DNA of 64,000 nucleotides from an uncultured Desulfobulbaceae bacterium. Lineage in GTDB: Bacteria; Desulfobacterota; Desulfobulbia; Desulfobulbales; Desulfocapsaceae. Both the position numbers and the translations under genes were made by a program. The stretch covers positions 1-64,000 of the forward strand of contig CAISPV010000060.1 of assembly GCA_903887485.1 (NCBI GenBank), read 5' to 3'. Below, in pieces: positions 32,465 to 36,634 of this stretch. Positions within the stretch are counted from its first letter, which is position 1. Each line of letters starts with the position of its first letter. The notes below the pieces were generated by a model. It did no database searches. It had not been told where the DNA came from and saw only the letters and a list, made by a program, of their open reading frames with translations.

Positions 32465-33598
32465 CTAATGATTCCCGGCCAGGCTCTCATCTTTTTCTTC
32501 CAGTGCATCATCCACTCTTTTGATCCCCTCCATGAGAAGTTTCATAAAATCACCAACTTCCGCCGCCTTCATCTCCTGCGGGGAAAGACCAATAGTAAAT
32601 CTATAGGTTCCTTCATGCTCACCAAGTATGGCAAAAATCGCCTCCTCATTTTCTTGCGCCCGATAATGGGCATTAATAATACATCCCTCCCTGAACGAAA
32701 TCTTTCCCGGACCGTGAGGAAGGTCAAAGGAAAGCACACCGGTTTTGCTATTCATATGAAAGACCTGAAACAACTCTGCAGGGGCCATATCCTGCAATCT
32801 CCCCTGCATACAGGAGGCAAAATCTTCCGCCCGGGCCCTGTTCACCCGCGTCAGACGCTTGGCCAATAAACTGGCCATAAACATCTGAACAGCAGGCAGT
32901 TTGTGGAGCAAAAAATGAAAATCTTCACTGGAAACCGCAAGCACCTCAGTATCACACAAGGCCCTGACTGACGCCCCAGCCACCTCACCTCCCAGATAAC
33001 TCATCTCCCCGCATATTTCACCAGACCCCAAGGTCGTGATAACAACAGGCCCATCAATCACCAGCACTTGTCCCGAGATAATAAAATACAGATACGCATT
33101 CGCCTCCCCTTTATGGATCAGAAGGGCCCCTTCATGAACAATATTCTGTTGACACCGCCTAATAAATTCCTTTAATTCGTCGTCAGGGATGACCTGAATC
33201 AAGGGAAATAAGCGAATCTTCTCCAAAAGTTCCTGTTCTCTGCTCTCCAACACCACAGGCTTCGCTCCTGCTTCTATGGCCAAGGTGTCAGAAGTTGAAA
33301 TCGGCACAAATTTAATCAGGCCCGTACAACCACTACAATTGAATATCGGTTTTGCCGCTATCAGATCATCTGGTTTTGCCGCCAGAAATCTGAACAATAA
33401 CTGGGTCATTTCCCGAACCAGAATCAGACAGGTTGCCTTGTTTCCAGGACAGGAAAGCGATTTGTCCGACAGAATCAACCGGTCACCAACCTTATAAAAG
33501 GGGCAACGGTTTCCTTCAATAATTTCAAAATTGACCTGCAAGGATTTCATATCTTTCTGACTGCAGAATAAAGATTTAAATTTTCCATCATGAAACAA
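32465..33598 (-). CDS. Cyclic nucleotide-binding domain plus DUF4388-like protein
   Basis: CNB segment HKGEANAYLYFIISGQVLVIDGPVVITTLGSGEICGEMSYLGG; C-terminal DUF4388-like GRLQDMAPAELFQVFHMNSKTGVLSFDLPHGPGKISFREGCIINAHYR. Exact start uncertain. Confidence 0.8.
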   Translation of the reverse strand: MFHDGKFKSLFCSQKDMKSLQVNFEIIEGNRCPFYKVGDRLILSDKSLSCPGNKATCLILVREMTQLLFRFLAAKPDDLIAAKPIFNCSGCTGLIKFVPISTSDTLAIEAGAKPVVLESREQELLEKIRLFPLIQVIPDDELKEFIRRCQQNIVHEGALLIHKGEANAYLYFIISGQVLVIDGPVVITTLGSGEICGEMSYLGGEVAGASVRALCDTEVLAVSSEDFHFLLHKLPAVQMFMASLLAKRLTRVNRARAEDFASCMQGRLQDMAPAELFQVFHMNSKTGVLSFDLPHGPGKISFREGCIINAHYRAQENEEAIFAILGEHEGTYRFTIGLSPQEMKAAEVGDFMKLLMEGIKRVDDALEEKDESLAGNH

Positions 33599-33895: not shown

Positions 33896-36634
33896 ATGGC
33901 CATCATCTCTGAACAGCTTGAAGCCATTTTTCAAGAAATCAAGACCAACTTTGCCCAGCATCAACAGATTCAAGTCACACCCATTGCTGGAGACCCACCT
34001 GAACAGTATCGCGTCGCCTATCACCTGCAGGGATTCTGCAAAAAAGATGGGGGAGAAGTCCAAATATGCCCTAACCATATCATCACTATCACCCTGCCTT
34101 TTGGATTCCCCCACTTCCCCCCAAACTGTACGCCTGAAAGCCCTGTCTTCCACCCTGACTTTGATCAGGCGGCCATCTGCATCGGGGAGTTTTGGGAAAA
34201 CAACCCTTCTCTTGCCGAACTGATCATTCATATTGGCCGCATGCTGTGCGGCGAAATCTACTCAAGCAATAATGCTTTCAATGAAGAAGCTGCTACCTGG
34301 TACAAGGAAAACCAGAACCAACTGCCCCTGGATACCATCCGTCAATTATCAGCGCCTGAAGAACAGCCCCTGCAGCCTCCCGAAGAAAAGCGTGCAGTCA
34401 CCACCCCTCTTACGCCTCTGGGCTTGGTGGACATTGTCGATGAAACCTTTTTTCCAAGAAATGAAGAGGTAACCATTGATGACAACGAATCCTCCGAACG
34501 AGCGAATACCTTTACTGAAACTACGATAGAAAAAGTTTTTCCTCCTTCTCTGCACCAATCTCCCGTTACCCCCCAACACCTGGAAACAGTATCAAACCTG
34601 AACAGCCCGGATCAGCACAAACATGATAACGCCCGAAAAATATACCAGGAAGGGGAGGCATTTGAAAACAAGGGGCAGCCAGCAAGAGCCTTAGAAAGAT
34701 ATAAAACTGTAAAAAGTTTGGCCCCAGATTTTCCAGAGATAGATAAAGATATCAGTCGTGCACAATATTCTCTGGAGATACTTAGCGACTTGGTAGCAGG
34801 AGATTATTCCGAAGAAGACAGCAACGGCAAAAAGAAATCAGCGGTAAAACCCAAAGGCAAAAAGGTCGAATCGCCATCCCCCAAAAAACATTCTGTTCCA
34901 CAAGAGAGGAAACAAACCTCTCGCTGGCCGGCCATTATCATTGGCAGTGGCTGTACAGCCGTTTTGCTCACCCTGATTGGTGGTTACCTCTTTTTCAACA
35001 CTCAATGGGAACATGCTCAAACAAAGTTTAAAGAATGCAAACAGCTTCTGGATAGAGATCTGTTCTCGGATGCCGATCAAAAATGCACCGATGCCATGGC
35101 GTTAACCTTCAAAATTCTCTTGATCAAACAACAGGAGAAAAAACTTCTCACCGAAAAGATTAAAGAGATCCAGAGTTCCGAAAAATTAAAAAAAGGACTT
35201 GCGCTAAGCAAAAAAGACACCAGTCAACCGGAATGGCAGAAATCCATGTTCCTTGCCGATACATACCTGGCTGACAACAAATGGAAAGAGGCCATGGCAA
35301 GTTACACGCTCGCTCTTCAGCTTGCAACTAAGATACCAACAGTTGATCGCGCCATCCTTGATCAGATCCATAGCAACATTGCAACCGCCCAATTTAATAT
35401 TTTTTTACAGACGGGTGAGCAGGCTTTAGCTAAGTCAGAATGGGATTCCGCAAAAGATTACTTTAACAAGGCCGTGGATCTCACCAAACAAAATCCCCAC
35501 ATTCCACCAGAGGCCCTTTCCCGGATTAAATCCCTTACTGGCCAGGTCGAATTTAACAAGTTAATGGCTGCAGGTGAAGAAAATTTTTCGAAAGGAGATT
35601 GGCAGAATGCCCTTGTTGCTTTCGAACAAGCTCAAAAGATAGATCAAAACTTCTCTTTTTCTAATGCCAAAACAGTCGCCTCTCTTCAAGAGGTCATAGT
35701 CAAAACCAAGGTATTCAACGCCCTGGAACAGGGGAAGAAGGCAGTTGCGGATGCACAATGGGATCAAGCCATCAATCAATACGAAACAGCCATTCAACTC
35801 CTGAAAGAAAACAATGAGATCCTCAGTGGCGACAACCCCCTGCAAAGCCAGCAAAAAATTTCACGACTGATGCTTCACGCCGCGATTATCAGAGACAAAC
35901 AAAGCGCTGCCGACCACTTGAAGAACAAGGAATCTACCCAGGCAATCGACAAAATGCAGGCTATCATCGAGACGATAAACATGAGTTCTTTCGCCAAAGA
36001 ACAAGAGTTCCAGACAATTATCAAAGAGACCATGATCTCTATCAATCAGACTCAAGAAGACGCCCTCATCGCCGAGCAGATCTCATATCTAACCAACAAC
36101 TACCAAAAGCTCTTCACCCAGAATAACCCAACCCTGACCGCTGAGAATTTATCGCAACCACGGGCCAACCTTCTTAAAAAAATAGACAATAAACTGCTCT
36201 TCAAACTCCAGTGTTTTGAGCAGGGCCAGGGCCGACCAGTACTCTTGCAGATAAGTTATATCTATAATCCTGCCACCAAACAATGGCACCTTTTCAATAA
36301 TGACAAACCTGCAGGCGAACAAGAGGCAGAAACTGTTGGCCAGAATATCCTTTCCTCAGCTTATCAGGCCCAGGAAAATCATGCCATTCAAGAGCAGATA
36401 TCATACCTGACCGACAATTTTCAGACCCTTTTTATCAAAAACAACCCCGCACTGCACCGTGAAAACTTATCAAAACCTCAGGCAAGCTTTGTGAAGAAGA
36501 TAGGTGAAAATATGCTGTTTCTACTCCAGTGCTTCGAACAAAGATCTGACAAACCAACACTTCTAAAAGCCAATTATCTCTACGATCCAGCAAGCAACCA
36601 GTGGGAGATATACACCAATAAAAAAAGTAAATAG
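33896..36634 (+). CDS. Bacterial E2 (UBC)-like domain, transmembrane helix, helical/TPR-like repeats, C-terminal tandem duplicated domain
   Basis: N-terminus IITITLPFGFPHFPPNCTPESPVFHPDFDQAAICIGEFWENNPSLAELIIHIGRMLCGEIYSSNNAFNEEAATWYKEN matches the E2 pattern (PedYPf.PP...HPNv..G.iCl...Wsp..tl..il..i..lL.....ln.eAa..y...). TM helix WPAIIIGSGCTAVLLTLIGGYLFF; repeated EQISYLT(N/D)N(Y/F)Q.LF domains at the C-terminus. Confidence 0.78.
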   Translation: MAIISEQLEAIFQEIKTNFAQHQQIQVTPIAGDPPEQYRVAYHLQGFCKKDGGEVQICPNHIITITLPFGFPHFPPNCTPESPVFHPDFDQAAICIGEFWENNPSLAELIIHIGRMLCGEIYSSNNAFNEEAATWYKENQNQLPLDTIRQLSAPEEQPLQPPEEKRAVTTPLTPLGLVDIVDETFFPRNEEVTIDDNESSERANTFTETTIEKVFPPSLHQSPVTPQHLETVSNLNSPDQHKHDNARKIYQEGEAFENKGQPARALERYKTVKSLAPDFPEIDKDISRAQYSLEILSDLVAGDYSEEDSNGKKKSAVKPKGKKVESPSPKKHSVPQERKQTSRWPAIIIGSGCTAVLLTLIGGYLFFNTQWEHAQTKFKECKQLLDRDLFSDADQKCTDAMALTFKILLIKQQEKKLLTEKIKEIQSSEKLKKGLALSKKDTSQPEWQKSMFLADTYLADNKWKEAMASYTLALQLATKIPTVDRAILDQIHSNIATAQFNIFLQTGEQALAKSEWDSAKDYFNKAVDLTKQNPHIPPEALSRIKSLTGQVEFNKLMAAGEENFSKGDWQNALVAFEQAQKIDQNFSFSNAKTVASLQEVIVKTKVFNALEQGKKAVADAQWDQAINQYETAIQLLKENNEILSGDNPLQSQQKISRLMLHAAIIRDKQSAADHLKNKESTQAIDKMQAIIETINMSSFAKEQEFQTIIKETMISINQTQEDALIAEQISYLTNNYQKLFTQNNPTLTAENLSQPRANLLKKIDNKLLFKLQCFEQGQGRPVLLQISYIYNPATKQWHLFNNDKPAGEQEAETVGQNILSSAYQAQENHAIQEQISYLTDNFQTLFIKNNPALHRENLSKPQASFVKKIGENMLFLLQCFEQRSDKPTLLKANYLYDPASNQWEIYTNKKSK

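Follow-up and report, generated by a model that had tools for sequence, protein, structure and literature searches.

A gene in the analysed window, a 64,000-nucleotide stretch of contig CAISPV010000060.1 from an uncultured Desulfobulbaceae bacterium, encodes a membrane protein with a ubiquitin-conjugating (UBC/E2) fold at its N-terminus, and this domain is probably a non-catalytic, UEV/RWD-like pseudo-E2 used for docking on a bitopic TPR scaffold and linked to a DUF4388 protein. The residue aligned with the E2 catalytic Cys was replaced in about half of the relatives and no linked E1 or JAB genes were found; therefore the domain is most likely a docking or sensing module, not a conjugating enzyme. 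The features of the gene, its divergent neighbour (the partner gene) and the related short paralogues are listed in Table 1.

Table 1. Positions of the features (window coordinates unless another locus is named)
Feature	Position	Strand	Basis
912-aa bitopic protein: UBC-like domain, linker/TPR, TM helix, TPRs, C-terminal repeats	33896..36634	+	ORF; Pfam TPR and UQ_con; frame open in relatives
UBC-fold (E2-like) domain, aa 1-148	33896..34339	+	Pfam, family profile, AlphaFold, Foldseek
HPD tripeptide, residues 86-88, counterpart of E2 HPN	34151..34159	+	H and P in 163/163; D in 157/163
Cys95 codon (ICIG), aligned with E2 catalytic Cys	34178..34180	+	Cys in 84/163 distinct relatives
TPR-like repeat ahead of TM helix, aa 252-282	34649..34741	+	Pfam TPR_14, weak
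Single TM helix, about aa 347-365; basic flank on N-terminal side	34934..34990	+	Hydropathy scan
TPR repeats past TM helix, aa 452-642, putatively periplasmic	35249..35821	+	Pfam; side from charge distribution
C-terminal domain copy 1 (EQISYLTNNYQKLF...KQWHLF), conserved across order	36074..36297	+	Without Pfam match
C-terminal domain copy 2	36392..36631	+	Alignment of relatives
Partner gene: N-terminal Cys4 domain, cNMP-binding domain, DUF4388	32465..33550	-	Pfam; adjacency
Partner N-terminal domain, invariant Cys17, 42, 73, 76	33299..33550	-	Alignment
Short paralogues (about 530-560 aa)	L051 10040-11653; L052 9532-11118; L054 9825-11423; L055; L056

The N-terminal domain has the UBC fold

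A sequence-only reading of the window had placed a bona fide UBC-fold domain at the N-terminus of a membrane protein, and the residues it quoted were confirmed in a 912-aa ORF with an ATG start. Searched alone, the window domain matched UQ_con (PF00179) with an E-value of 6e-5 and 23-24 bits, under the 27-bit cut-off; all 38 of 38 aligned relatives matched UQ_con (best E 2.7e-9), and several relatives scored above the cut-off (33.5 and 33.8 bits). When a profile of the family was compared with the PDB, human UBE2C was matched at E 1.4e-8 and 207 PDB sequences were found at E ≤ 0.01. An AlphaFold model of the domain, for which 43 window and relative sequences were the input, had a pLDDT of 91.9 and a pTM of 0.89, with a helix, strands and helices in the order expected for UBC. 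Foldseek with this model gave 347 PDB matches at E ≤ 1e-3, eukaryotic E2s being found at prob 1.00, and the best 50 of the 347 were E2s, E2 complexes or E2 fusions. The N-terminal domain thus belongs to the UBC fold superfamily, as had been proposed.

The order of parts was conserved in the family: UBC domain, a linker that may contain TPR, a single TM helix, TPRs and a C-terminal domain. In the long form of the protein TPRs were detected by Pfam on both sides of the TM helix. A hydropathy scan of 133 uncut ORFs (duplicates included) counted a single TM helix in 126, and the assignment to a membrane protein also held. The N-terminus would be cytoplasmic, because the basic flank lies on the N-terminal side of the helix, and this topology rests on a modest difference in basic residues across it (11 versus 6). 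The window protein and L032 each have the C-terminal domain twice, the other aligned members of the order once; it gave no match in a Pfam search and is new. The gene was under strong purifying selection (dN 0.035-0.124 versus dS 0.19-1.13).

Motifs are conserved but residue 95 is not

Residues were counted over 163 distinct UBC domains. P72, P76, H86, P87, W100 and A132 were found in 100% of them, D90 in 99%, N129 in 98% and D88 in 96% (157/163; N in 1), and the signatures PFGxPHFxP, HPD, W and FN.EAA.WY were near-invariant. The PP and HP motifs pointed out in the sequence-only reading are therefore truly conserved. HPD in place of HPN was seen as it had described, with the correction that HPD is the norm of the family. 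The motifs also followed in the E2 order it had given, but their spacing differed, a profile alignment with classical E2s revealing that three residues are deleted between Cys95 and Trp100.

At position 95 the residues were C in 84 domains (52%), R in 63 (39%), K in 6, P in 3, S in 2, A in 2 and Y, H or D in 1 each. The Cys state changed at least six times on the tree, with losses nested inside Cys clades. One large clade, with 28 rows in the first tree, had no Cys at all and mostly Arg; Tyr, Ser, Arg, Ser and His arose at separate places within the Cys clade. Tyr95 was found in the window's own genus (L012/L084, G014), and dN/dS in the Tyr95 lineage was about 0.14-0.18; the ORFs remained long despite the loss of Cys95. 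Neither of two marks of a catalytic E2, an invariant catalytic Cys and an HPN with its catalytic Asn, was found in the family. Since Cys occupied position 95 in 52% of the domains and the 3-residue deletion followed it, the catalytic reading is no family property, and the "retained" catalytic Cys proposed earlier had to be withdrawn as a family feature. Of the two roles then suggested, a catalytic conjugase is unlikely and an inactive E2-like adaptor is favoured, because Cys was lost several times inside Cys clades. Of the features whose absence the earlier reading had named as refuting it, the fold and the PP/HP motifs were borne out and the conserved Cys was not. Cys95 nevertheless has some role in the Cys clade, since most of its members kept it.

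One alternative reading is a thiol or redox switch, in which Cys95 and Cys78 (34127-34129, in the PPxCKP strand) sense redox or bind metal in the Cys lineages and thereby modulate binding of a partner. Cys78 was present in 84/84 Cys95 domains and in 14/79 domains without Cys95, four Cys are invariant in the partner N-domain, and the hosts of the named relatives are, from general knowledge of their physiology, mostly anaerobic sulfur-cyclers. This correlation of Cys78 with Cys95, however, follows one large clade, and several lineages keep Cys78 without Cys95, so that we consider a switch unlikely.

E1 and JAB genes are not linked to the family

No ThiF-like ORF was found in 205 UBC loci (2.57 Mb with duplicates). 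The E1-like content of the window's own genome consisted of a TcdA-like protein, a small ThiF and one partial ThiF match below the cut-off, none of them near the UBC gene. Prok-JAB was absent from this genome; strong JAB matches in 38 relatives fell mostly in genomes without the UBC domain, and JAB did not track the family. No match to ubiquitin (PF00240) was obtained in the own genome, an uninformative result because control genomes likewise gave none. The Prok-E2 Pfam models matched none of 38 members at E ≤ 0.1. No dedicated E1 partner was thus found in the own genome or the UBC loci, and no dedicated JAB partner in the own genome or the relatives; the earlier description of the gene as an orphan of E1/JAB context was right. 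A defence system was also rejected: PADLOC gave no match for the UBC protein, and the partner's matches were to the shared cNMP-binding domain only.

These searches bear on the proposal that the domain is an active E2 in the Cys lineages, where an E1-like protein acting in trans would load Cys95 with a Ubl or a ThiS/MoaD-type sulfur carrier, the Arg/Lys lineages being secondary pseudo-enzymes. The alignment of Cys95 with the E2 Cys in the profile, its retention in 75/80 members of the main Cys clade and the TcdA-like E1 homologue and small ThiF encoded in the genome are consistent with it. We regard it as very unlikely: the gene was retained through repeated loss of the Cys, three residues are deleted after it, Asp replaces the catalytic Asn, the searched neighbourhoods contained no E1, the own genome no Prok-JAB, and no dedicated Ubl was seen. 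Moreover, a distant outlier that bears HPN has Asp, not Cys.

A divergent gene adjoins the UBC gene

The partner product matched cNMP_binding (6.6e-16) and DUF4388 (1.6e-19) in Pfam. Among 153 distinct cases whose flank was long enough, its gene adjoined the UBC gene in divergent orientation in 122 and was absent beside 31, including the 530-560-aa UBC paralogues. A SecDF-YkgJ-HAD-DUF4388-UBC block was syntenic in most relatives, the SecDF, YkgJ-type protein and HAD hydrolase being putative names read from the sequences. The partner-UBC pair persisted without the remaining synteny at L047, L048, L049 and L068. The two divergent genes could simply share a promoter region.

A comparison of the partner gene in the window with relatives (L046, L047, L153, L193, L195, L202 and L209) showed that in most Arg/Lys95 lineages exactly the cNMP-binding domain was missing from the partner. 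Beside UBC genes with Cys95 the partner was long in 67 cases, short in 1 and lacking in 9, and beside those with another residue it was long in 3, short in 51 and lacking in 22. On the tree, pairs differing in Cys state and partner content pointed in the same direction (3.1 versus 0.0 on average), with a median p of 0.25; because the independent changes were too few for significance, the association of residue 95 with the partner domain is a lead, not a result.

The block synteny would also suit a UBC-like domain that only caps the TPR protein structurally and binds no specific ligand, the neighbour being a bystander. Three observations make this quite unlikely: motif conservation in the UBC domain far exceeds that of the linker, the pair outlasts the rest of the block at the four loci, and the Cys state tracks the domain content of the partner.

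A model of the partner N-domain had a pLDDT of 82.8. The order of its elements was beta-grasp-like, but a ubiquitin-like fold was rejected as Foldseek gave no Ubl; only weak XdhC/CoxI-type matches (E 0.04-0.06) were obtained, and the match to TIGR04076 was weak as well. Partner paralogues with the same Cys-domain N-terminus and no UBC gene nearby occurred elsewhere in some genomes, at L297 (5245-6333), L299 (6216-7286) and L300 (5261-6394).

A proposed docking model

According to the docking reading that we prefer, the pseudo-E2 UBC domain would form the end that a single-pass TPR scaffold of the Desulfobulbales exposes to the cytoplasm. The PFGxPHFxP turn, HPD, W100 and N129 would make up a surface on which a cytoplasmic partner docks. 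This partner is most likely the protein encoded by the divergent neighbour (Cys4, an optional cNMP-binding domain and DUF4388), the contact being predicted from adjacency only. The state of the docked partner may be relayed across the membrane to the TPRs and the C-terminal domain, this direction of the signal being putative, or the partner may be anchored there. A more specific form of the model is possible but doubtful: the two proteins would make up a ubiquitin-free pair that signals across the membrane, with an E2-fold domain as the receptor on which a DUF4388 protein that binds cyclic nucleotides docks, and residue 95 would co-evolve with the cNMP domain of the partner (Cys with it, Arg/Lys without it).

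Distribution of the family

Relatives of the UBC protein were detected in 61 of 97 near genomes and in 171 of 258 genomes of the class; they fell in families f1, f12 and f3, with a single member in f6. In three families of the order Desulfobulbales the protein was present in most of the members sampled. Named relatives were mostly Desulfocapsa, Desulfofustis, Desulfopila, Desulforhopalus, Desulfobulbus and Desulfurivibrio. Their hosts are mostly anaerobic sulfur-cycling bacteria, and the three families are sulfate-reducing and sulfur-cycling. A wider survey covered 297 genomes sampled evenly from the phylum, in which G282 was the sole family member outside the order; a PF00179 search found the same seven genomes, indicating that practically all UQ_con proteins of this sample belong to the family. 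The G282 protein (L190) was distant and had HPN with Asp at the Cys position; it kept the UBC-TPR-TM-TPR layout, with longer TPR-like stretches.

Some genomes carried a short paralogue (UBC-TM-TPR, 530-560 aa) alongside the long form. Its position 95 was Arg or Pro and no DUF4388 partner adjoined it. Its neighbours varied (a Clp ATPase or a RecD2-like helicase upstream, cytochromes) and gave no function.

No copies of the UBC protein were matched on plasmids and none were found in viral contigs. The literature searched, which reached few subscription papers, contained no earlier description of the family.

Comparison with known systems

The family shares its fold, its motif order and an above-chance sequence similarity with eukaryotic UBC/E2 proteins (UQ_con PF00179; UBE2C, UBE2D3). 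It differs from them in having HPD for HPN and a 3-residue deletion after the Cys position, in lacking the Cys in about half of its members, in its fusion to a TM helix and TPRs, and in the lack of a detected Ub/E1 context.

UEV/RWD pseudo-E2s (Mms2, Tsg101, RWD) have an E2 fold without a conserved catalytic Cys and are used for binding. The window family likewise has an E2 fold without a conserved Cys, and by this analogy its UBC domain is probably similar in role, binding being predicted; 38 members gave no Pfam UEV match and one weak RWD match. With DUF4388/PATAN proteins the partner has DUF4388 in common, alongside a cNMP-binding domain, but it is fused to a Cys4 domain and its gene is paired divergently with a pseudo-E2 gene.

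Bacterial E2-fold proteins have been described in operons with E1-like, JAB or polyUbl genes, and some of the E2-fold domains in E1/JAB operons are without Cys (Iyer et al. 2006, PMC1779556). The window family has a bacterial E2 fold in common with those operon proteins. As a family it fits neither the catalytic E2s, which have the Cys and Asn, nor the prokaryotic E1/E2/JAB systems, since it is without E1/JAB linkage and without a Prok-E2 match. If our reading is true, the E2 fold serves outside conjugation in bacteria, and the natural alternation of Cys and Arg makes the purpose of an E2 fold without ubiquitin directly testable. In contrast to the proteins of Iyer et al., the family stands outside the E1/JAB context and combines eukaryote-like E2 signatures with a membrane scaffold.
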